Positions 1 through 13,873 of a stretch of 48,935 nucleotides of DNA are shown here, one piece after another; positions within the stretch are counted from its first letter, which is position 1; each line of letters begins with the position of its first letter. The notes under the pieces are model-generated. The model made no database searches. It was given only the letters and a program-made list of their open reading frames with translations, and was not told the DNA's origin. The DNA is from Treponema sp. (GTDB lineage Bacteria > Spirochaetota > Spirochaetia > Treponematales > Treponemataceae). Location: assembly GCA_016283615.1 (NCBI GenBank), contig JAEENG010000020.1, forward strand, positions 1 to 48,935, written 5' to 3'. The position numbers were made by a program, and so were the translations under genes.

Positions 1-602
1 TCTTTTTCCATCAGGAAGCCGCCAACCGGTTCGCTCTTCATGAATTTAGCGATAGAAGCTGTAGAAGCCTGGTCGCGGTGAGCTGTACCGAATGCATCGT
101 TTACAAAGATGTCACCGTATGAAGCAAGTTCTTTTGCCATTGGTTCGCGTTCTTCCGGAGTTTTAGCTGTTTCTTCCTTGTGGAAGCGAACATTTTCGAG
201 CATTGCAACTGCTCCGTCCGGAAGAGCGTCAATTGCTGCCTTCTGTCCGAGGGCATCAGGAAGGAATGTAACTTCTTTTCCGAGTTTTGAAGCAAAGTAT
301 TCAACAACAGGCTTCATGCGGTTTTTGCCGTTGATAAATTTTTCTGCATCTGCATCTGTCCAGGTTTTACCTGCTTTTTCTGCTTTTTCCTGAGCCTTTT
401 TAACATCCTTTTTTGGATCTCCAAGGTGGCTCATCAAAACGAGTGAACGCGGATTCTGTTCAAGAATATATTTGATAGTTGGGAGTGCGGCCATAATACG
501 TGTGTCATCCTGTACTACGCCGTCTTTCATCGGCACATTAAAATCAACACGCATGATAATGCGTTTGCCTTTAAGATCTACATCTTTTACTGTCTTAATC
601 AT
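1..602 (-). CDS. pgk: Phosphoglycerate kinase, N-terminal part (C-terminus outside window)
   Basis: Glycolytic enzyme that transfers the acyl phosphate of 1,3-bisphosphoglycerate to ADP in the cytoplasm. About 200 residues are visible. They begin [13 protein letters not shown] and contain the family's early motifs [16 protein letters not shown] and LLEN-type [12 protein letters not shown], then [11 protein letters not shown]. The ATG at 602 is preceded by AGGAGA about eight bases upstream, which fixes the start. The gene runs off the left edge, so nucleotide-binding C-domain motifs cannot be checked. It is divergent from the radical SAM gene at 700. Another glycolytic gene, gap, lies 12 kb away and is not co-transcribed with it. 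Confidence 0.97.
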
Positions 603-699: not shown

Positions 700-1704
700 A
701 TGTTTGAGCCAACTGAGATAATTTTTGCCTCGACCAATTCATGCAATCTAAAATGTCCTCATTGTTTTGTAAATCCCGGGAACAAGCGCCTGGAGATTCA
801 GGACGCAGTTAACTTTTTAAACTCCTGTAAAAATTCAGCAATAGAAAAAGTCGGCTTTTCCGGCGGCGAACCGTTTTTATACCAGGAGTTTCTGACAGAG
901 GTAATCCGGGCAGCCGTTAAAAACGACCTGATGTTTGACAGAATCATGACCAACGGTGAATGGTGGACAAAGGCTCCCCTTTTACACGAAGCCCTGCAGA
1001 AAGTTTATGACGCAGGCTATGACGGCAAAATCGGTTTGAGCTGGGATGCCTTTCACGGCCAGAGCTTCAGCCGGATCTGCGTATTTATTCAGGAAGTAAT
1101 GGAAGTTTTTGGAGGAGACTGCCTTGAAATTCAGACAGTTCTGGACAGTATTGAGAACCAGGCAGAATGCCCGACGGACGAACTGATGATTTTTAACTTT
1201 CAGAAACTTGCCGAACACTTTAATCTTGAATTTGAATACGAACTCGACAAAAAATCCGGACGCGGATGGGCCACCCTTCAGGGACAGGTTGAATTAAGTT
1301 CCGGGCCATGTGATGTTTTTATCCCGGTAAATCTTGAACGGCCGACGCTGCAGTTCAACCAGGAAGAAGCCTGGAAGAGCAAAAAATGGTTTAAAGACGA
1401 TTACTGCGAAGGACCGGGACAGATTCTGTTTATTCATCCGGGCGGTGATATTGCGCCGTGCTGCGGTTTTGCAAATGAAGAAAAGGAACTTTTTATAGGT
1501 TCAATAAAAGACAGCTTTGACGAGGTGATAAAAAAGGCTTCTGAAAACGCTCTGGTAAACCTGTGCTACAACGAGGGACTTTCCACAGCAGTCAAAGTGC
1601 TGAAGGAAAACGGCGCCGAGCTTCCCTTCGGCCCGGAATCAAAAACCGACAACCCGTGCACTTTCTGCCAGTTTGTCTGCAAAAATGCCGGCAAATTGAA
1701 TTAG
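700..1704 (+). CDS. Radical SAM protein with SPASM-like C-terminal cysteines
   Basis: A 334-residue putative radical SAM enzyme. The [4Fe-4S] motif CNLKCPHC (C15, C19, C22) sits near the N-terminus and is followed by the SAM-contacting GGEP (55-58). The C-terminal part looks like an auxiliary-cluster SPASM/twitch domain: C236, then G249-x4-C254 (C255 adjacent) in the context HPGGDIAPCC, and a terminal C320-x2-C323-x3-C327. Family knowledge: SPASM proteins often modify peptides or proteins, but the substrate here is unknown and no small precursor peptide gene was seen beside it. The next gene starts ten bases after the stop, so the two are probably an operon. The start is set by the leaderless promoter; no other in-frame ATG is better placed. 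Confidence 0.85.
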   Translation: MFEPTEIIFASTNSCNLKCPHCFVNPGNKRLEIQDAVNFLNSCKNSAIEKVGFSGGEPFLYQEFLTEVIRAAVKNDLMFDRIMTNGEWWTKAPLLHEALQKVYDAGYDGKIGLSWDAFHGQSFSRICVFIQEVMEVFGGDCLEIQTVLDSIENQAECPTDELMIFNFQKLAEHFNLEFEYELDKKSGRGWATLQGQVELSSGPCDVFIPVNLERPTLQFNQEEAWKSKKWFKDDYCEGPGQILFIHPGGDIAPCCGFANEEKELFIGSIKDSFDEVIKKASENALVNLCYNEGLSTAVKVLKENGAELPFGPESKTDNPCTFCQFVCKNAGKLN

Positions 1705-1714
1705 GGGGCGCAGA

Positions 1715-2908
1715 ATGACAGACGTAGAAAACCTTGAAAAAATAATTTCTGACATTTTTGGTGTCCAGAAAATTATCAAAAACAAAAACAATTCAAACGC
1801 CTGCATTGCCCCTTTAAACCGCTACCCGCTCAATCTTTTTGCATTCAATTTTATGAACCGCCTGAGCCGGCTTGCAGAAAAATTTGCCGGTGACAAAGAC
1901 GCGCTCAACACAATCACCGACCGCATCAAAAACCTGGGAGAGGCAACTGAGTCTTCCTGGGCAGGGCCCTACTCCGAGCTTGTTGCCCTCGATTTTTACA
2001 GCCAGTTTTCTGAGTTTTTCAAAGTATCTTACATAAATATCCTTCCGATTGCCGAGCACGAAAAAAGTATTCCGGCATTGAACGGACAAAAGGAAAAAAT
2101 CGATATTGATTTGTGCCTCAATTTAAGACACGACAAAATTTACACGGACGTAAAATCGTTCAACTGTATTCATCAGCTCATTTTTGAACGCATTTTTGAA
2201 AGTATCGAAACCTTTGCCCGCGACAAACTCGGAAAAACGATTTTAATCGGGGTAGACAACATGTCTTCCCTCGACTACGTGACAGTAAAACAAAACCTTG
2301 TCGGCGAGAGAAAGTACATCGAAGAACTTTTAAAAATGGCAGTTACCGAAGGCCGCAACTTTATGACCTATTCTTCAAAGGGCGGATTGCAGTTCAACTT
2401 TAAAATTGAATACTCATCGGCTCTTTCTACGGTAAAGGAATATTCACCGTTTGCAATGGCAGAAGCATACAAATACAAATTTATTGACTACGGAAGCAAG
2501 CTCCTGGACAACGAATACTCGATGATTACGATGGTGCGCAACAACTTTTTTAACACGGAAACCGTCGACTTTGGAAACTTCAACAACATCTTTTATCGTT
2601 CATTGAGCCGCAGGACCTTTATGGAACTGCACAAAATGCGTTCTGCCGCACAAAAGTATTCTTCAAACTACAAGGATGATTCAATCAGGGTGTCGGACGT
2701 GAGCAAAAATCTCGCAGGAATCATTTTTATCGACGACAACTCGATGCGCTCAAAATACTACAAGAGTCTTTACAGCGCATACATTTACTTAAATCCAAAC
2801 TACATAAACAAGGCGCCGCTCACAATCAGAAAGCTGGAAAAATACTTTCACAACGACTTTGAAGTTCAGATAAAGGATTTTGACGACTTTAAGTGGGATA
2901 ACTATTAG
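1715..2908 (+). CDS. Protein of unknown function with PD-(D/E)XK nuclease-like signature
   Basis: A 397-residue protein that I do not recognise by name. Seen in the sequence: E88 within a helix-like stretch (YSELVALDFY), D130/D132 in IDIDLCL, and a following strand IYTDVKSF with D145-x-K147. This order, Glu then Asp then (D/E)xK about 13 residues later, is the spacing of the PD-(D/E)XK catalytic core, so a nuclease-like or nuclease-derived fold is my inference. The C-terminal GIIFIDDNSMRSKYYKSLYSAYIYLNPN also resembles the ends of such proteins. No signal peptide or membrane segment is visible. It is preceded by GGGGGC and follows the radical SAM gene closely. It ends by overlapping the convergent lipoprotein gene by four bases (2905-2908). 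The true function is undetermined. Confidence 0.75.
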   Translation: MTDVENLEKIISDIFGVQKIIKNKNNSNACIAPLNRYPLNLFAFNFMNRLSRLAEKFAGDKDALNTITDRIKNLGEATESSWAGPYSELVALDFYSQFSEFFKVSYINILPIAEHEKSIPALNGQKEKIDIDLCLNLRHDKIYTDVKSFNCIHQLIFERIFESIETFARDKLGKTILIGVDNMSSLDYVTVKQNLVGERKYIEELLKMAVTEGRNFMTYSSKGGLQFNFKIEYSSALSTVKEYSPFAMAEAYKYKFIDYGSKLLDNEYSMITMVRNNFFNTETVDFGNFNNIFYRSLSRRTFMELHKMRSAAQKYSSNYKDDSIRVSDVSKNLAGIIFIDDNSMRSKYYKSLYSAYIYLNPNYINKAPLTIRKLEKYFHNDFEVQIKDFDDFKWDNY

Positions 2909-3987
2909 TTGAATTTCTGGAGCAGTTCGATGAATTCGATTGCGCTTACAGTTTTGTCGCCGGAAAAATTAATTCCGTCTTCCAGATGCATTAAATCGTT
3001 TTCTACAACACCGAGGACCGCGTCAAAATCCGGCGAGTCCCGGCTCACATCCGGAATCGGGCTCCGCATAGAAGCGTCCACGAACAGTGCCGAATATTTA
3101 TTCAACTGCTCCGGAGTATTTTTCTTTTTATTCCAGAGGTTCCATAAAAATCTTGCGCACATGGTTTTTGTGACAGCCGCGTCCCTTGAAAGGGGGCCCT
3201 GATTTTTATAAGCGCTCCGGCACGAAGTAAGTTCGCCGGATGCAGCGACTCTCTTATACAGCACGGATGAACTAATTGCCTTTCCGGCGGTGTACGCATA
3301 CATCAGGTCTGTGCGTGTTGTTGCAAGTTCAAGCATCTGCTCAACGGTGATTTTGTTTTTTGTCAGAAGTTTGTCATAGCCTGAATGTGCATTCACCTTT
3401 GCTGTAGAGCGCATTGACCAGCAGAAGTCGCGCAGCTGGCGGTAATTTTCCTGATAAAAATTGTCCAGAAGCAGAAAGGCTTCGTCAAAGTATGCTACGG
3501 CGTTTGCATAATCTTTATCCGAGTACGAATTAAGCGCGTCTTCGATTATAAAAAGCGCGTTTTCATTGTGTTTTTTTGAACTGCTCTTTTTTGATTTAAG
3601 GCGGTCTTCCAGAACCGAAGCACGCACATCACCCTTAAATGAAGATCTGGACATGTTCAACCGGTCCCGGGCAAAAGAAGTGTCCCCTTTTAAAAGGCCT
3701 ATAAGCCCCTGAAGCGCATACAATCTTGCACAGTCGGCTTTTTTCAGGGAGTCCGCATTGATTGCGTTTTCCATGTCATTTATGTAAACCTGGGCCACAG
3801 TCAAATCCACTTTGCCGTTCATATAATACACCGCGTCGAGCTCGGTAAAGCGCTCTTCGTAAAAAGCGGTCTGCTGGCTGTCAGAATTGAGTTCAACATA
3901 TTTATCGGTCTGGGCACTCATACAGCCAGAACTAAGCAACGAAAAAAGAAGGCATATTGATAAAAAGGCTGTTTTTAGAACTTTCAT
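2905..3987 (-). CDS. Lipoprotein, probably with helical TPR-like repeats, unknown function
   Basis: A 360-residue protein that begins with a signal peptide ending LLSSGC, so Cys22 is the likely lipidated residue and the protein is probably anchored in the periplasmic face of a membrane. The rest is strongly helical with TPR-like stretches, for example CARLYALQGLIGLLKGDTSFARDRL near 85-110 and YANAVAYFDEAFLLL near 160. No enzyme motif is visible. The ATG overlaps the stop of the upstream membrane protein gene (ATGA, 3984-3987) and has GGAG seven bases before it, so the two are translationally coupled. This suggests they work together at the cell envelope. The 3' end overlaps the plus-strand gene at 1715 by four bases. 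Confidence 0.8.
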   Translation of the reverse strand: MKVLKTAFLSICLLFSLLSSGCMSAQTDKYVELNSDSQQTAFYEERFTELDAVYYMNGKVDLTVAQVYINDMENAINADSLKKADCARLYALQGLIGLLKGDTSFARDRLNMSRSSFKGDVRASVLEDRLKSKKSSSKKHNENALFIIEDALNSYSDKDYANAVAYFDEAFLLLDNFYQENYRQLRDFCWSMRSTAKVNAHSGYDKLLTKNKITVEQMLELATTRTDLMYAYTAGKAISSSVLYKRVAASGELTSCRSAYKNQGPLSRDAAVTKTMCARFLWNLWNKKKNTPEQLNKYSALFVDASMRSPIPDVSRDSPDFDAVLGVVENDLMHLEDGINFSGDKTVSAIEFIELLQKFN

Positions 3988-6677
3988 TTAAGTCTCCAGG
4001 CAGTAATTTTATTGTCGATTGTAAGTGCGATTCCGTCAGTTTTTTTGTCGGCGTTAACGTCGGCAAAAACCGGGTAACCGAATCCTTTGACAGGATAACC
4101 ATGTAAAAGTTCAAGATTTTCGTCAAAGCCGTAAATTACGTTTGAGTCGGCGCAGACATAAACACCGTATTTTGCGCCGGTTCTTTTCTGAACACTCAGA
4201 TATGCGTTTCTGGCAGTTGAATGCGGAATGCGGACGCTCAGCACATCGCCGTCAGGGCTTATACGATACAAAACTGCATCGGAAGAAATTGTGTAATAAT
4301 ATTTTTGCGAACTTGCGGCAGGTCCCATAAACACTCCGTTGAGTTTTACAGGATTTACAAGGTCAGCGTCTTTAGAAAAATTCCAGCAGTAAAAGTCACC
4401 GGCCTGTGTTACAAAGCCCGCCTGATTTTTTGACTCTTTGAGCATCACAGGGTACGAAAGTGAAATTCCGTTTACAGTAACCGGAGCATCCTGATTTTTT
4501 ACAACGCCGTTTTCAAAGAAGAACACGAGACCCGGAAAGCCCTTGCTGTAAAGTGCAAAGTTTGAGCCCGTATTCTGCGGAGTCATTTTTACGGAAAGTC
4601 CCTCGATTTTTTGAGTTGAATAAGTTCCGTCGGTTTTGACAGTAAAAACTGTTCCATTTTCGCTGATTACGATGAGATTGCTGCCGCTTGCAAAAGGTTT
4701 TACGCTAACACGCTCACCTGTCATAACCGGGAAAGGTTCAAGTTCTTCAAGATTTGAATTCATCAATGAAACAACTCCAAGCGGTGTTACGCTCCAGAGA
4801 GATGGCCCTGTGGAACTTGCAGCCGGAGCATTTACTGAACAAATCATTACGCCCGAGGCACTGTCCGCTGTCTGAATTTTTGTCGACTCCAAATCAAAAC
4901 TGCAGATTGTTTTTCCGTCTTTAACAAAGAAAACATGATCAGGATTTTTTACCGCATTTGCGGCAAAAGTTTTCGGGTCTGCCCTTCCCTCAAGGCTCAG
5001 CGGAAATCCCGGAATCCCGGTACTTTGTTTTGTTTCCCTCGCACTCGACTGAAGTGTAAATTCAAGCTGGTAGTCGCGGAGGCGGATGTCAAAACGGCCG
5101 AGATTATATAAAGAAAGCACTTTTGAAAAGGCTTCATTTTTTTTGATAAAGAAAGGCACGCTGCGTTCAAGATTGTAATAAAGGCTCATTGTGCTTTCGT
5201 TTTTTTGCCGCGAAGAAACACTCTTCCAGCCTTCATCCTTTGTCAACGATGTGCCGTTGACTGCGCCGGTGTAAATTGCAGAAAGGGATTCTGCGCTTTC
5301 AGAAAAATAAATCGTTTCATTCTGGACCATAAAGTACGGAGACGGAATGGAAATATTTACGACAGAAAGCATCCAGTTCAAAAACGGAGGAAGTGTCAGG
5401 CGCGGAAGGCGCACTCCGGCTAAAATAAGGCTGTCGTCTTCGCTGATTAAGAGGGAGCCGGTCAGTTTGTCAAAAACTTTTTTGCGCGCATTTTCATCTT
5501 TTACAAGTACTGCAAAAACCGGGTCATTCTGATTTTCAATTCCAAGAACCGCAAATTCATCGCCGGTCCAGGAAAGTAAAAATTCATTTAAATTCATTCC
5601 CAGCATGCTTTTACACATACTGTCATACTGGGCCCACTGCTCTTCCGGAGATTTCTGGGACTTCATGAACGGAAGGAGAGCGTCTTTGAGTACATCGATT
5701 GAACCCGCATTAAGGAGTGTGTAATATTGAACACAATCCGTCAAAGCCGGTAAAAAGGCCGGAACAGTTGAATTTTTACTGATGATTGAATTGAATTTCT
5801 TTAAGTCTTCTTCATCCTCGCTTACCGGGAGAGAGCATTTTACGAGAAGGTCGCTGTCAGTTATAGATAGCGAAAGCACGCTCAATTCGTCCTGGCCAAG
5901 AATCCGGCTCATTGAAGAAAGAACTTCGTTTCCTTCGGTAAAATACTGCATCAGAAATTTTGCGTCAGCAACAATGCGGATGTCGCCCCCGCTTTTTTGA
6001 GTAAGCATTTTGCGCTGGCTTGCGGTATAAGTTGAATCATTTTTTACGAGGCAGGAAGTCATGAACAAATCTTTTGAATCACTTACGATTACAAGATTTT
6101 TGAGCGCCTTTATGTAAAAAACATTGCCGTCTACCGTACAGCAAAAATACGGAAGGCTTTCATCTTCCACATACACAATATTTGGAACAGAAAAACCGCT
6201 TTTATATTTAAGAAGATATTTCCAGCCAAAATCTGCAAGGCGGCTTGCAAAAGAAAAGGGACCGAGATTGACGGAAGCCACAAAGTTTGCGTTTTGAATA
6301 TCACCGTAACAGGCAAAATCGACCGGCCGCGAAAGTAAAAATTTAAAAAGCGGATTTGAGCGCAAAGGTGACGAGCGCAGCGTCATAAACATTTTGCGGT
6401 ACTTTACAAATTCTCCGGATGAGAGCAGAACTTCTGTTGCGTGTAAGTCAAGCAGCGGGTTAACCGTAGCAAAGGCCGAATCTGTATGAACGTATGCGCT
6501 GTAATTGCGCGGAATCGCTGAGAGCGGCGAACGTCTGTCGAGCGCACTGAAGGCAAGGATTCCTGAGGCAATGAGAATAAGAAGGACAATTAAACCAGAA
6601 ATGAATTTTACAAAACTTAAGAATGGATTTTTGCGTTTTGACTTTTTTATGCTTTTTGAATTTTCAGAATCAGCCAT
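3984..6677 (-). CDS. Membrane-anchored protein with beta-propeller/FG-GAP-like C-terminus, unknown function
   Basis: An 897-residue protein from ATG 6677. The N-terminus is short and basic (KSIKKSKRKN), followed by one membrane segment (FISGLIVLLILIASGILAFSAL, about residues 26-47), which leaves the bulk outside the cytoplasm. The middle region resembles DUF3352-type proteins in composition and in its repeated LSSGEFVKYRKM-like segments; this match is tentative. The last 250 residues read as repeated blades (LIVISENGTVFTVKTDGTY, YTISSDAVLYRISPDGDVL, ADSNVIYGFDENLEL) ending with FADVNADKKTDGIAL, an FG-GAP-like acidic loop. An upstream in-frame TTG at 6695 lies inside the promoter, so I prefer ATG 6677. 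The gene is coupled to the following lipoprotein gene. Confidence 0.8.
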   Translation of the reverse strand: MADSENSKSIKKSKRKNPFLSFVKFISGLIVLLILIASGILAFSALDRRSPLSAIPRNYSAYVHTDSAFATVNPLLDLHATEVLLSSGEFVKYRKMFMTLRSSPLRSNPLFKFLLSRPVDFACYGDIQNANFVASVNLGPFSFASRLADFGWKYLLKYKSGFSVPNIVYVEDESLPYFCCTVDGNVFYIKALKNLVIVSDSKDLFMTSCLVKNDSTYTASQRKMLTQKSGGDIRIVADAKFLMQYFTEGNEVLSSMSRILGQDELSVLSLSITDSDLLVKCSLPVSEDEEDLKKFNSIISKNSTVPAFLPALTDCVQYYTLLNAGSIDVLKDALLPFMKSQKSPEEQWAQYDSMCKSMLGMNLNEFLLSWTGDEFAVLGIENQNDPVFAVLVKDENARKKVFDKLTGSLLISEDDSLILAGVRLPRLTLPPFLNWMLSVVNISIPSPYFMVQNETIYFSESAESLSAIYTGAVNGTSLTKDEGWKSVSSRQKNESTMSLYYNLERSVPFFIKKNEAFSKVLSLYNLGRFDIRLRDYQLEFTLQSSARETKQSTGIPGFPLSLEGRADPKTFAANAVKNPDHVFFVKDGKTICSFDLESTKIQTADSASGVMICSVNAPAASSTGPSLWSVTPLGVVSLMNSNLEELEPFPVMTGERVSVKPFASGSNLIVISENGTVFTVKTDGTYSTQKIEGLSVKMTPQNTGSNFALYSKGFPGLVFFFENGVVKNQDAPVTVNGISLSYPVMLKESKNQAGFVTQAGDFYCWNFSKDADLVNPVKLNGVFMGPAASSQKYYYTISSDAVLYRISPDGDVLSVRIPHSTARNAYLSVQKRTGAKYGVYVCADSNVIYGFDENLELLHGYPVKGFGYPVFADVNADKKTDGIALTIDNKITAWRLK

Positions 6678-6683
6678 AAAACA

Positions 6684-6712
6684 ATTTTTAGTCAAAACGC
6701 AGTTTTTGTCAA
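6684..6712 (-). promoter_or_regulatory. Promoter of 6677 gene, overlapping the pectate lyase stop codon
   Basis: On the minus strand there is a perfect TTGACA at 6712-6707, a 17-base spacer, AAAAAT at 6689-6684 (4/6 to consensus) and six bases to the ATG at 6677. The TTGACA contains the TGA stop of the PL9 gene. The mRNA would be leaderless, in line with the absence of any Shine-Dalgarno sequence here. Confidence 0.55.
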
Positions 6713-9033
6713 TTCATTACAGGAGCGCCTTCGAGAACTTCATAGGCTTCGTCGCCAAAGCGGCAGCCCAAAGCGCTGTACGAGCCGGAAGATTTTGATT
6801 CAAAAAGACCGCCCATGTTTACTGTTCCGTCGGCGTTACGGCATACTGAGTGAACAGTTCCGTCAAATGCCGGCAGAGTTACAGAAACAAATTCACCAGA
6901 ATACGGGTCAGAAACCTGTGTTCCGATTTTATCGCCGTTATGAATCTGAGTCTCATCGGTAACGTAATAGAAAATTCCCTTACTCTTGTCACCCAGATAA
7001 ACAGAATCTGCAATCAATGCGGCAACAGTAACCTCGTTTTCTTTTCCGCCAAACTTATCTACCTGTGCTACACTTGCTTCTCCGGTTGCAGAAATGAGTT
7101 TTCTAAAGACACCGCCTGCATAAGTACGATAGAAGTTAAAGTTTGAATTTGTATTTGCAACAGAAGTACAGCCATGAACGCTCAAAGCACCGCCGTTACC
7201 GTTATCAGTAAATCCGTCCTTTCCGTTTCCGAATGCAAGGCAGTTGTAAACTACGTGCGGTGTCGGAACCTTGTTGTTTGAGCCGCCAAGTTTATAGCCG
7301 TTCATATCGCCGTTTGCAAAGTTTGTTCCGGAAGTAAGTTTACCGTTTCCAAAAGCGACACAGTTTCTGATTGTTACAACACCGATTGATCCGGTTGCTT
7401 CTTTTGCGTACAAATCCCAGCCGTCATCGCTGTTGCAGTAAGAAATACAGCCGTCAAATACGTTTCCGTCGCCGCAGGTAAGTTTTGCGGCAAAACCGTC
7501 TGCGTTTTCATCAGTTGCAGGGTCGTGGTTATCAAAAGAAGTACAGTTCAAAATCAGGTTGCCGCTCGGCCAGTCTGCAAACGCTGTAACAGAAGAAGCA
7601 CGGCGGCTGATTTGAAGGCCTGTATCACGGTTTGCCTGTAAAACACAGCGTTCAATAATGTTGTTTTTACCGGCTACAAAGATACCGTTGTCGGCAGCTC
7701 CATAAACTGTGATTCCAAAAATGTGCCAGTAGTCTGCGTTAATCTGAAGACCACGCGCATTATTTGAAGTTTCACTTGAATCATAAGACTGGCTCGAAAA
7801 GTCCAGGATAACGGAAGCATTGCTTTCCGGCATAATGTATTTGCGCGCACTTTCTGTTCCGTCATTGCCGGCAGCGATAGTGAGCTGATGGTCAAATGAG
7901 TAGGTTCCTGCGGCAATAACGATTGCCCCGCCCGCTTTTACCTGTGTAAGGGCAGATTCAAGTTCTGATGCACTTGAAACACGAATTGCATCTTTGATTT
8001 TTGAAGTATCGATTTCATTCAATAATGAGCGCCGTCCGATTTTTGAACCGTTTGTGTATTCGGCGGTTAATGTAGGGTCGATAACCGGGGTCACAGGCGC
8101 AGTCACTCCGCCGGAAGTTCCGGTTCCGCTGCCGCTACCTGTTCCGCCTGAGCCGGATGAAGAGCCTGTGGTTTCAGTTGTTGAATCTATTATGTTTCCG
8201 TTTTCATCTGTCGTAACCTTAGTTACAGTTGTCGAACCGTCTTCGTTTACAGTTGTAGTTGTTTCTACTGTGTAAACAACATCTTTTAAAAACAATACAT
8301 CATAAAGGCACACCCAGTTGGTTGAACCTACAACGATGTCCACAACGTCAGTTCCGCTGTATTCGACAGTAAAACTCACACCTTCTCTTGCAAGCGAGTT
8401 TGCTGCAATAACAGCTTCATCCCGGTAAAGAGTATTGCCGGCTTTTATGTATGCATAACGTCCGTCAGTCTTGGGATTTTTTGAATTTGCACCGTAGTTG
8501 ATTTGAATTTTAAACGGTCCCTGAACTGAAGAAATTGTAAAAGCATCATCTTTAATTTGCAGAAGACCTGCAGAACAATCTTTTACAGTACAACTCTTAT
8601 CTGATGCATTATAACCGCAATATTGAATCGGAGTCGCACCGTCCGCACCAAGAGAATGAATCTTAGCCGTGTAACTGCCGTCATCTGATAAATATTCAAC
8701 ATCACTTTTGAGGGAAAATTTTTTATTGTTTGTACCGCCAAATGTTGTAAAATCAACAGCGGCTGCTGCAAGTGCATCAGATGTTGCAATTGCAGTCGTA
8801 GCGTCTACAGCCTCGCACGCAGCAGAAGACAAGTCGCTGAAAACCCATCCGTTGGAAACAGAAACGGTTTCCTTTACGGTGGTAACGGTAGTTCCTGAAT
8901 TTGTAAGCGGATCAGAACCCGACTCCGGGTCAGAACCTTTTTTAGAAGTACTTACATTGTGAGTACAGCCTGCAAGAATAAGTGCTGAAAAAGCAAAAGA
9001 AAGAATTGAACGGTAAAGATTTTTTTTATTCAT
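6709..9033 (-). CDS. Pectate lyase lipoprotein, polysaccharide lyase family 9
   Basis: A 774-residue surface or periplasmic lipoprotein. The signal peptide ends LILAGC, with Cys23 as the lipid site. Residues 60-255 form a beta-rich accessory module of unknown family. A Thr/Gly/Ser linker (about 255-315) follows, then a right-handed parallel beta-helix (about 335-680). Within it are the PL9 features: ADGFAAK with D512, the calcium-binding DDGWD with D536, D537 and D540, and NGYKLGG with K581 as the probable catalytic base, by analogy with Pel9A of Dickeya. It should cleave polygalacturonate by beta-elimination. It lies 71 bases downstream of a PL1 lyase gene on the same strand, and the two probably act together on pectin. 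No strong Shine-Dalgarno is seen; AAGG is 12 bases before the ATG. Confidence 0.9.
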   Translation of the reverse strand: MNKKNLYRSILSFAFSALILAGCTHNVSTSKKGSDPESGSDPLTNSGTTVTTVKETVSVSNGWVFSDLSSAACEAVDATTAIATSDALAAAAVDFTTFGGTNNKKFSLKSDVEYLSDDGSYTAKIHSLGADGATPIQYCGYNASDKSCTVKDCSAGLLQIKDDAFTISSVQGPFKIQINYGANSKNPKTDGRYAYIKAGNTLYRDEAVIAANSLAREGVSFTVEYSGTDVVDIVVGSTNWVCLYDVLFLKDVVYTVETTTTVNEDGSTTVTKVTTDENGNIIDSTTETTGSSSGSGGTGSGSGTGTSGGVTAPVTPVIDPTLTAEYTNGSKIGRRSLLNEIDTSKIKDAIRVSSASELESALTQVKAGGAIVIAAGTYSFDHQLTIAAGNDGTESARKYIMPESNASVILDFSSQSYDSSETSNNARGLQINADYWHIFGITVYGAADNGIFVAGKNNIIERCVLQANRDTGLQISRRASSVTAFADWPSGNLILNCTSFDNHDPATDENADGFAAKLTCGDGNVFDGCISYCNSDDGWDLYAKEATGSIGVVTIRNCVAFGNGKLTSGTNFANGDMNGYKLGGSNNKVPTPHVVYNCLAFGNGKDGFTDNGNGGALSVHGCTSVANTNSNFNFYRTYAGGVFRKLISATGEASVAQVDKFGGKENEVTVAALIADSVYLGDKSKGIFYYVTDETQIHNGDKIGTQVSDPYSGEFVSVTLPAFDGTVHSVCRNADGTVNMGGLFESKSSGSYSALGCRFGDEAYEVLEGAPVMN

Positions 9034-9052
9034 TTTTAAACAGCCTTATAAA

Positions 9053-9079
9053 AATACCGGCCACAGAACGGCCGGTATT
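9053..9079 (-). terminator. Hairpin between the two pectate lyase genes
   Basis: A perfect 10-bp stem, AATACCGGCC at 9053-9062 with GGCCGGTATT at 9070-9079, and a 7-base loop. On the minus strand it follows the PL1 stop and is followed by only TTTATA, so it may be a partial terminator or an mRNA processing/stability element within the operon. On the plus strand a long T-rich tract follows. Confidence 0.6.
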
Positions 9080-9104
9080 CTTTTTATTTTATTTTTTTTC
9101 TTTT

Positions 9105-11888
9105 CTATTCTGAAATTACAATTACACCGATAGAAGCTGTATCACCTTTTGTAATAACATCATTACCGGTTGCAGTAAATGTTTGTTCAAATGTTGTAAC
9201 TGCTGTAGTTTTAGCACTAAGTTTAACAGCAGTACCATTCAACTTAAAGCATGACTGTTTTCCGCTTGGTAAAGAGCCTACAACAGTAATTGTAGCACCG
9301 ACTGTTGCCTTCACAGTAATGCTGCTTGAACTTTCCATTTTCATGGTTGTATATTCGATACCGTCATAAGTAATGGTAATTGCACCATTACTTTCCTTTG
9401 CATTTACACTTCCAACTGCAGTTACGCGGCTGTCGGACGGAGCAACGGCACCGTTTACAACAAGAGCTACAACAGCAGAACCTGTCGGAACGTCTGTACT
9501 TCCTGAGTCAGTAGTTCCACCGGAAACAGGGTCACTTGTTCCGCTTCCGGTTGATTCACCTGAACCGGTTGAACCTGAATCTCCGCCGGTACTTCCGCCG
9601 GAACCCGAAGAAGCAAGTCCCTGAACTGCCGTAAGCTTGTTTTCATAGTTTACGACAAGAGCTTTCAATGCTGAATTAACACCATAATCAGCGTCATCTG
9701 CCGCATTGTCAAAGTTGTATGCAAAGTCACTCTGGTAGCGGCCTGCGTATTTAACAACGTATGATTTTGCAGTTTCTGCATTAGAAGGAACGGCAGCAAG
9801 ACCAAGTCCGCTCAAACCTAATTTTGTATCAAAGTTTGAATATGTATGGCTTCCGCTCTTTGTCTTTACAGTGTCAGGAACAACTGCATCACGCGAATCT
9901 ACTTCGTAAGCGTCAATATCGCTCAAAGAAACACCTGTTGTATATGTAGTTTCCCAACCGGTTGCTGCATATACAGTGATTGCCTTGACGTTGATTGAAC
10001 CTTCAGAACCTGCAGTAACAGCAAATGAAGTATCAGTAAGACCGCTTACATCAAATTCACAGTCTGTATAATCTGCATCACTTACAGTTCCAGATACACT
10101 GCCTACCGTCAATTTTGCAGAACTTACATCAGAAGAACCTGATTTTGCTTTAATTACAACCTTTGTCGCATTTGCAGGAACTGTAAGCGTAAAGCCTTTT
10201 TTACCCTTAGAAATCTGATAATATGGCTTTGTTGCGTCAGAAGCTCCCTTATCGGTTGCATTATCTGTAACAATGAAAGCTGGGAAACTCTCTCCGTATG
10301 CCCAGCTGTATATTGTCCAAGTTCCATCACCGTTAACTGTACCAAGAGTTTCTGTTACAGTTGTCGGTTCTGAAACTGATTTACCATTTGTGTAGTCGTA
10401 TTTGTTTGTAACAAACTGGAATTTAACTCCGTTTGTATTATTTCCAACAAACTTATTACCGTAAGCCTTAATGGTTCCGCCTTCTTCACCTGAGAAAGTT
10501 CCGTCACCCTGTCCGTCAGTTCCCTGCTTTGAAGACATCATCGGGTCATGAGCGTTACGGAAGTAGTTTGATTCAGCAAAACATGAAGAACCGCTTGTTA
10601 CACCAATACCGTATTTTGAGTTACCGTCGTAGTAGTTGTTGTAAACGTGAACTGCAGTTGCGTTACGGATACGCGGATGGCGGCTGTCTGAGTGGTCATA
10701 CCAGTTGTGGTGGTAAGAAAGATAGTTTGAACCGTTTGAATCTGCAGAGGCATCAAGGAGATTACACTTTCCGCTGTCCCAGAAGTGGTTGTAAGAAAGT
10801 GTACTGTATGTTGATTTTTTAAAGTCTAACGAACCGTCACCCTTAGCCTGGTCTGAGTCAGAACCGACAGCACCGTAAGAAATATCGTTGTTATGAATCC
10901 AAAGGTATGAGTTGTCAGTATCAACCGAAATACCATCGTCCATAAAGTTGTAGACACCGAGGTTGCACAGTTCAACATATTTGGCTGCACGAATAAGGAA
11001 GCCGAATCCGTAAACAGCGGCATCGTGTCCTACACCTTCGATTGTGATTCCATATTCTGTTGTTGATTTAATCTGAAGGCCTTCGGCAGATGAACCGAGG
11101 CTGTCCATCTGAGCCTTTGTAATTGTACCGATGATACGGATACAAAGAGGTACAGAAAGTTTTTTGAGGGAAGCTTCAGAAAGAATATTCTGAAGACCTG
11201 TGTAAGTTGCGTCGGCAGTTGCGTTTGTACCTTTTACCTGAGTATAGCTTACTGTTTTTGCAGTAGCGCCTGTTACGTACAAAACAATTGCGTTGCTCTT
11301 GAGGGTACCGTCAGATGCGTAAGCACCAGGAATTGAAGAGCCTGTAAATGCAAAGCCTGAACGGTCTTTATCAGCAACAGTCATTGTTGCACTTGAATAG
11401 TCAGACTTGCTCTGGGTACCTACGGCGCATACTTTAAGAGTATGTGAGCCTGCAGTAAGTCCAAGAGCATCAGCACGGCAAACCTTTGTCAAAGATTTTT
11501 TGGTCCATGTTGAATTTGCCTCGTCATACTCATGATATACATATTCATCATAGTAGCGGATTAAAGCTTCATCAATCTTAACATCATCAGCAAGAACTTC
11601 ATAAACAGCGCCTTCTACCTGTTCAAAAATAATGTATGCAGAATTGAACAGACCGTCGCTTTTTACAATTTTAACCTGAGCATTTGAAACATCAGCGGCG
11701 GTAGGAGTCTGAACAGTACCTGCTCCGCCTCCACCATTTTCAGGATTATCAACGTTTCCGCCACCGCCGGAAACAGGACCGCTGTGTTCGTCTCCTCCAC
11801 CGCCGGAACTTGTAGTTCCCGAGCAGGCAAAAAATAGAAGTCCCGCAGCAAGAATTGCGGTAATTCCAAATAAAGTCCTTTTCATCAT
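9105..11888 (-). CDS. Pectate lyase lipoprotein, polysaccharide lyase family 1
   Basis: A 927-residue lipoprotein with signal peptide ending LLFFAC (Cys22) and a Gly-rich tether to residue 60. Residues 65-175 look like a fibronectin-type or Ig-like domain. The PL1 beta-helix spans about 240-500, with WIHNNDIS, the calcium-site DGSLDFK (D351, D355) and YHHNWYDHSDSRHPRIR, in which R406 matches the PelC catalytic arginine. A beta-sandwich module (about 555-645) follows, then a Ser/Gly/Thr linker (760-800) and a C-terminal beta module (805-927), probably carbohydrate-binding. Predicted to cleave pectate outside the cytoplasm with the neighbouring PL9 enzyme. Two ATGs stand in tandem; GGGGG ends one base before the first and four before the second (11885), so the second may be the true start. 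Confidence 0.92.
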   Translation of the reverse strand: MMKRTLFGITAILAAGLLFFACSGTTSSGGGGDEHSGPVSGGGGNVDNPENGGGGAGTVQTPTAADVSNAQVKIVKSDGLFNSAYIIFEQVEGAVYEVLADDVKIDEALIRYYDEYVYHEYDEANSTWTKKSLTKVCRADALGLTAGSHTLKVCAVGTQSKSDYSSATMTVADKDRSGFAFTGSSIPGAYASDGTLKSNAIVLYVTGATAKTVSYTQVKGTNATADATYTGLQNILSEASLKKLSVPLCIRIIGTITKAQMDSLGSSAEGLQIKSTTEYGITIEGVGHDAAVYGFGFLIRAAKYVELCNLGVYNFMDDGISVDTDNSYLWIHNNDISYGAVGSDSDQAKGDGSLDFKKSTYSTLSYNHFWDSGKCNLLDASADSNGSNYLSYHHNWYDHSDSRHPRIRNATAVHVYNNYYDGNSKYGIGVTSGSSCFAESNYFRNAHDPMMSSKQGTDGQGDGTFSGEEGGTIKAYGNKFVGNNTNGVKFQFVTNKYDYTNGKSVSEPTTVTETLGTVNGDGTWTIYSWAYGESFPAFIVTDNATDKGASDATKPYYQISKGKKGFTLTVPANATKVVIKAKSGSSDVSSAKLTVGSVSGTVSDADYTDCEFDVSGLTDTSFAVTAGSEGSINVKAITVYAATGWETTYTTGVSLSDIDAYEVDSRDAVVPDTVKTKSGSHTYSNFDTKLGLSGLGLAAVPSNAETAKSYVVKYAGRYQSDFAYNFDNAADDADYGVNSALKALVVNYENKLTAVQGLASSGSGGSTGGDSGSTGSGESTGSGTSDPVSGGTTDSGSTDVPTGSAVVALVVNGAVAPSDSRVTAVGSVNAKESNGAITITYDGIEYTTMKMESSSSITVKATVGATITVVGSLPSGKQSCFKLNGTAVKLSAKTTAVTTFEQTFTATGNDVITKGDTASIGVIVISE

Positions 11889-12814: not shown

Positions 12815-13873
12815 TTATTTAAGTTCTGAGAAGTATTTAATAGTACGAACCATCTGTGAAGTATAGCTGTTCTCGTTATCGTACCATGAAACAACCTGTA
12901 CTTCGTACAAATCGTCAGCGATTTTGTTTACCATTGTCTGAGTTGAATCGAACAATGAACCAAAGCGCATTCCGATTACGTCTGAAGATACGATTTCGTC
13001 TTCATTGTATCCGAATGTTTCAGGATCAGAAGCTTTCTTCATAGCGGCGTTGATTGCTTCTTTTGTTACGTCGTTACCCTTTACAACTGCTGTAAGGATT
13101 GTTGTAGATCCTGTTGGAACAGGAACACGCTGAGCTGAACCGATCAATTTTCCGTTCAATTCCGGAATTACGAGACCGATAGCTTTTGCAGCACCTGTTG
13201 AGTTAGGAACGATGTTCTGAGCACCTGCGCGTGAACGGCGGAGGTCACCCTTGCGCTGTGGACCGTCGAGAATCATCTGGTCGCCTGTGTAAGCGTGGAT
13301 TGTTGACATGATACCTGACTGGATTGGGAAAGCATCGTTGAGAGCTTTTGCCATTGGAGCCAGACAGTTTGTTGTACAAGAAGCAGCAGAAATAACTGTG
13401 TCGCTTGCTTTAAGAGTTTTGTGGTTTACGTTGTAAACGATTGTTGGAAGATCATTTCCAGCTGGTGCAGAAATTACAACTTTGCGTGCACCTGCTTTTA
13501 CGTGTTCTTCTGATTTTGCTTTTGATGTATAGAAACCTGTACATTCGAGAACTACGTCTACGCCGATTTTTCCCCAGTTTGGAAGGTTAGCTGCATCTGG
13601 TCCCTTGCACTTGTAAATTACGATTTTCTTTCCATCTACTACGATGTAGTTATCTTCGCCTTCACCATCGTGAGCTTCTACAGTGTGCAGTCCTTCACCA
13701 ATACGGCCCATGAAACCGCCCTGTGCTGTATCATACTTCAAAAGGTGTGCGAGCATTGTTGGGCTTGTAAGATCGTTGATAGCAACAACTTCATATCCCT
13801 TAGCGCCAAACATCTGGCGGAATGCCAAACGACCAATACGGCCAAAACCATTAATAGCAACTTTTACTGCCAT
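12815..13873 (-). CDS. gap: Glyceraldehyde-3-phosphate dehydrogenase, type I
   Basis: A 352-residue cytoplasmic enzyme that oxidises glyceraldehyde-3-phosphate to 1,3-bisphosphoglycerate with NAD. The N-terminal Rossmann motif is INGFGRIGR (8-16). The active site SAASCTTNC has catalytic C166, and H193 lies in [10 protein letters not shown]. The C-terminal [15 protein letters not shown] is typical. The chain is longer than the usual 330-340 residues because of a charged insert near 63-77 ([10 protein letters not shown]), a feature seen in some bacterial GAPDHs. AGGAGA stands six bases before the ATG and a strong terminator follows, so it can be expressed alone as well as by readthrough from the valS-acyl-CoA synthetase run upstream. 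Confidence 0.98.

Follow-up and report, generated by a model that had tools for sequence, protein, structure and literature searches.

The window, that is, the whole stretch of 48,935 nucleotides analysed here (contig JAEENG010000020.1 of Treponema sp. assembly GCA_016283615.1, denoted G000), opens with a phosphoglycerate kinase gene (pgk), from which a radical SAM gene (ORF 1) diverges. A second open reading frame (ORF 2), coding for a protein of 397 residues, follows on the same strand after a gap of 10 bases, at the positions and distance originally predicted, and its stop codon is overlapped by 4 bases by that of a convergent gene, C6. The features are as follows.

3–602, reverse strand: pgk (phosphoglycerate kinase), truncated at the window edge.
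700–1704, forward strand: ORF 1, radical SAM/SPASM-type protein of 334 residues, EpeE/YydG-like (open reading frame, Pfam and fold match).
742–765, forward strand: CX3CX2C motif (C15/C19/C22), read from the sequence and invariant in 16 relatives; expected ligand of the radical SAM cluster.
1459–1464, forward strand: C254-C255, invariant in 16 relatives; C255 aligns with the H-donor Cys223 of EpeE.
1715–2908, forward strand: ORF 2, PD-(D/E)XK-like protein of 397 residues, Treponema only (open reading frame and predicted structure, pLDDT 83.6).
1976–1978, forward strand: E88 (motif I), located on the first helix of the predicted core (residues 83–96); invariant in 34 homologues.
2108–2110, forward strand: D132, motif II (IDID, in which D130 is also invariant), at the second core strand of the predicted structure; invariant in 34 homologues.
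2147–2155, forward strand: D145-V-K147 (motif III), on strand three of the predicted core (141–149); D145 and K147 invariant in 34 homologues.
2905–3987, reverse strand: C6, convergent gene of 360 residues with no Pfam match (open reading frame call).

The pgk homologue of a related genome (G196) carries a Pfam PGK match, and in seven of the regions fetched from the genus, window included, no more than about 1.5 kb separates pgk from the radical SAM gene. On the other side, C6 is adjacent to a gene of 903 residues, likewise devoid of a Pfam match (both on the reverse strand, 2905–6695); in G020, homologues of these two genes adjoin the radical SAM gene. Still on the reverse strand (6712–11888) come two large lipoprotein-like secreted proteins, the second of which matches pectate lyase (PF00544), followed by a GAPDH gene at 12818–13873. 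The window contains no tRNA and no Rfam family. A scan for promoter-like matches found 8 of them against 3.4 ± 1.8 in shuffled sequences, none on the forward strand between pgk and ORF 1; the single promoter originally assigned to both genes is therefore not established. The assembly of the window may itself be a mixed bin, its rpoB being present as two pieces on separate contigs (C187:35268–38456 and C60:21828–22925); its listed contamination is 5.37%.

The assignment of ORF 1 to the SPASM-type radical SAM enzymes is upheld by Pfam matches to Radical_SAM (2.5e-08) and SPASM (9.1e-05), both above cut-offs, and by nine cysteines (C15, C19, C22, C236, C254, C255, C289, C320 and C323) that are invariant in 16 relatives and cover the CX3CX2C motif and the C-terminal cluster. 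Among solved structures, sequence comparison puts YydG/EpeE closest (6.3e-14); EpeE is also the top fold for a model of ORF 1 that was built from only four sequences (pLDDT 66.9), with a Foldseek E-value of 4.2e-11 and a Z-score of 15.2 over 270 residues, the next entry reaching Z 12.4. PHROGs returned generic radical SAM matches, and viral contigs no relatives of the protein. No conserved precursor-peptide-like open reading frame was found beside the gene; the short ones that recur near it are apparent shadows of pgk or of an antitoxin-like gene, as judged by eye. ORF 1 is probably an ancient spirochaete enzyme, an EpeE-like radical SAM protein whose gene is frequently found next to pgk.

The protein encoded by ORF 2 is matched by no model in Pfam, NCBIfam, PADLOC or PHROGs; Pfam searches with 34 homologues at E-values up to 10 gave scattered weak matches only, and PDB sequence searches with the protein or its profile gave nothing significant. 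Among these homologues, E88, D130, D132, D145 and K147 are invariant. In the AlphaFold2 model, a helix (83–96) is followed by three strands (103–106, 133–136 and 141–149), a second helix (152–172) and a last strand (176–182), in agreement with the order of core elements by which the PD-(D/E)XK fold is defined (PMC1913061); an α/β core is thus predicted around residues 88–147, and the motif I glutamate, the motif II aspartate and the motif III (D/E)xK all fall on the expected elements. The spacing of 13 between D132 and D145 equals that between D33 and E46 in Hjc. The top VIA-align matches of the model are XisH (Z 6.5, the highest) and BsmI (Z 6.3), and the list also holds AF1548, Hachiman, Cdn1, McrC, Bax1, Hjc, I-Ssp6803I and HindIII; Card1, RecU and the R2 endonuclease are further structural neighbours. 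All of these matches are weak, with Z at most 6.5 when an unrelated acetyl-CoA carboxylase scores about 5, and Foldseek found no match at E ≤ 0.001 (best E 0.12). The nuclease-like motif of the original prediction is thus in place, residue for residue, as is the predicted core, while the resemblance to solved members is slight; taken together, the 397-residue protein likely adopts a PD-(D/E)XK fold.

By analogy with the superfamily, the protein would be catalytic: E88, D132 and D145 would serve as metal-ion ligands and K147 would orient the water molecule attacking the phosphodiester bond, with the N-terminal helices and residues 185–330 possibly conferring substrate specificity. Could the fold have been kept in a binding or regulatory protein that is no nuclease? 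The most conserved long region of the family (243–300) lies outside the motif core and, in some carriers, the gene comes after FIST-like and MCP-like signalling genes with an overlapping start, both of which would suit such a protein; however, four motif positions invariant in 34 sequences would be unusual for a dead nuclease, and we regard this possibility as quite unlikely.

The two genes were originally proposed to form an operon with a possible joint role, and a literature search for a nuclease/radical SAM pair in Treponema found no papers. The 397-residue gene is present in 38 of 200 Treponema genomes (about 19% of species), 13 of which also have the radical SAM gene, but the two are adjacent in only four (G000, G094, G174 and G196); these four belong to one nine-genome branch of the 397-residue gene tree, not as sister groups. 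Nine genomes carry both genes apart, as in T. ruminis CP031518 (G072), where the two map to 780 kb (397-residue gene) and 2,029 kb (radical SAM gene), some 1.25 Mb apart. In three genomes (G020, G072 and G212), a C6 homologue lies directly 3′ of the radical SAM gene, and the 397-residue gene sits elsewhere. In the majority of regions fetched from the genus, pgk is close to the radical SAM gene and the 397-residue gene is absent there. Counting radical SAM carriers at E below 1e-20, and with G174, which has both genes, outside the sample, the radical SAM gene occurs in 12 of 37 carriers of the 397-residue gene and in 72 of 159 other genomes, so that the two are uncorrelated (Fisher p = 0.20) and show no positive co-occurrence. 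The gene pair is not conserved, and the original pairing idea falls with it. Their phyletic ranges differ as well: the 397-residue family is confined to one genus, Treponema, of the 167 sampled in the phylum, whereas 20 of the 62 genera sampled in the order have the radical SAM family.

A real lineage-specific operon, in which the radical SAM enzyme would modify or cooperate with the nuclease-like protein, would account for the shared strand and the gap of 10 to 12 bases in three close relatives (G000, G094 and G174), for the recurrence of the adjacency in G196 with an overlap of 8 bases, and for its retention at dS values of 0.3–0.5. These same observations are what speaks against treating the genes as unpaired. 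Nevertheless, 25 of 37 carriers of the 397-residue gene lack a clear radical SAM homologue, so the gene must work without such a partner, 72 of 84 radical SAM carriers lack the 397-residue gene, and separated copies and insert-free junctions both exist; such an operon is most improbable. Because their adjacency is limited to a handful of relatives, the two genes are probably unrelated neighbours with no joint pathway. In one lineage, the 397-residue gene would have ended up with the radical SAM gene on one side and the convergent C6 on the other.

Elsewhere in the genus, which was represented among others by the gut and rumen relatives T. ruminis, T. saccharophilum, T. berlinense and T. zioleckii, the 397-residue gene has at least a dozen distinct upstream neighbours, among them rny, ispH, hslU and a FIST-like/MCP-like pair, and its housekeeping neighbours comprise rny, ispH, hslU, ilvD and fabD. 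The FIST-like and MCP-signalling-like proteins precede it at three loci (L089 in G193, L101 in G201 and L107 in G124), and in G201 there is an overlap between its start and the preceding gene's stop; an MCP signalling neighbour was dropped as a recurrent feature, a motif scan having found one nearby in only a few carriers. At one locus (L044 in G013, positions 229–1369) the gene is split over two frames, by decay or by an assembly error, and in G170 it is cut by a contig end, with a matching C-terminal piece on another contig (L108, G170:C86; L114, G170:C43). No relatives of the protein were found in viral contigs, phages or plasmids. A remote match in another spirochaete family (G357, residues 319–397, E 0.004, with 393 genomes searched and E-values calculated per genome) was dismissed as chance, the protein looking different.

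Among G000, G094 and G174, the 397-residue gene has a dN/dS of 0.026–0.041 and the radical SAM gene, at a comparable dS, one of about 0.11–0.12; purifying selection on the former is strong. The tree of the 397-residue gene is largely that of rpoB, two genomes (G018 and G170) being displaced; inheritance is thus mostly vertical. Another candidate is a free-standing homing-type or otherwise selfish nuclease spreading its own gene. Such an element would explain the many upstream neighbours, the insert of gene size that parts the radical SAM gene from C6 and brings little additional sequence, and the presence of I-Ssp6803I and the R2 endonuclease among the fold neighbours. Against this, ilvD is found within 4 kb of the gene in 13 of 38 carriers from several branches, which points to an ancestral place and later rearrangement, the gene tree mostly tracks rpoB, and no common border sequence that could be a target was seen, by eye, at the insertion points; a selfish nuclease is accordingly very unlikely.

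The reading we favour, at a probability of roughly three in four, is that two unrelated genes are neighbours here, an EpeE-like radical SAM enzyme and a stand-alone Treponema family of PD-(D/E)XK-type nucleases. What the latter might do is a matter of more tentative ranking. The patchy presence of the gene suggests an accessory role, and our leading guess, held at somewhat less than even odds, is a restriction-type activity on foreign or modified DNA. No defence family recurs among the neighbours. PADLOC matches at E ≤ 1e-10 include no DNA methyltransferase (70 neighbour representatives, two genes either side, with 25 of 112 Pfam families listed). The very low dN/dS and the housekeeping neighbours fit poorly with defence. 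Slow evolution and housekeeping surroundings argue instead for nucleic acid maintenance, and an auxiliary nuclease for DNA repair, recombination or RNA processing, which some species have retained while others have lost it, comes next as a real, if still doubtful, possibility. Its strong purifying selection, mostly vertical inheritance, chromosomal housekeeping neighbours and the fold neighbours Hjc, RecU and Bax1 all suit this role; its absence from about 80% of Treponema species, some of them represented by genomes rated 99% complete, and its many different gene contexts do not. Rather unlikely, in our estimation, is a further reading in which the protein stands for an unnamed PD-(D/E)XK family, restricted to Treponema, that has a new specificity (it could be a modification-dependent restriction enzyme lacking a methyltransferase) and a gene that moves, as one unit, more often than is usual. 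With the suggested radical SAM/nuclease pathway removed, two separate leads remain: in treponemes of rumen and gut, a strongly selected family of unannotated nuclease-like proteins and, in spirochaetes, a radical SAM enzyme that resembles EpeE and has no known substrate.

In comparison with known systems, ORF 1 is best matched, in sequence and fold and over nearly its full length, by EpeE/YydG (PDB 8ai1–8ai6; NCBIfam TIGR04078), with which it shares the CX3CX2C motif, the CC motif and a C-terminal CxxC. Its C255 is the equivalent of Cys223, the proposed H-atom donor of EpeE (PMC8326336), and faces an alanine in the aligned 8ai3 chain, a C223A mutant. By contrast, D210 of EpeE, mutated in 8ai6, is aligned with I242 of ORF 1, and the Treponema gene lies near pgk. 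ORF 1 may work like EpeE, though it is not classed as EpeE because it scores 63.3 bits with TIGR04078, against a curated cut-off of 300 bits, and because no precursor-like open reading frame was found nearby. The radical SAM core of prokaryotic viperins (pVip) also aligns with ORF 1, at residues 10–121 (PADLOC E 2.9e-13), but this match is confined to the shared core, while the C-terminal domain of ORF 1 points to EpeE. The 397-residue protein, for its part, differs from the PD-(D/E)XK superfamily (Hjc, 1gef; XisH, 2inb; BsmI, 9ez5) by the lack of any sequence model match, by its weak structural scores and by long family-specific regions on either side of the core; what it has in common with these enzymes is the predicted core topology and the order and spacing of E, D and D-x-K.
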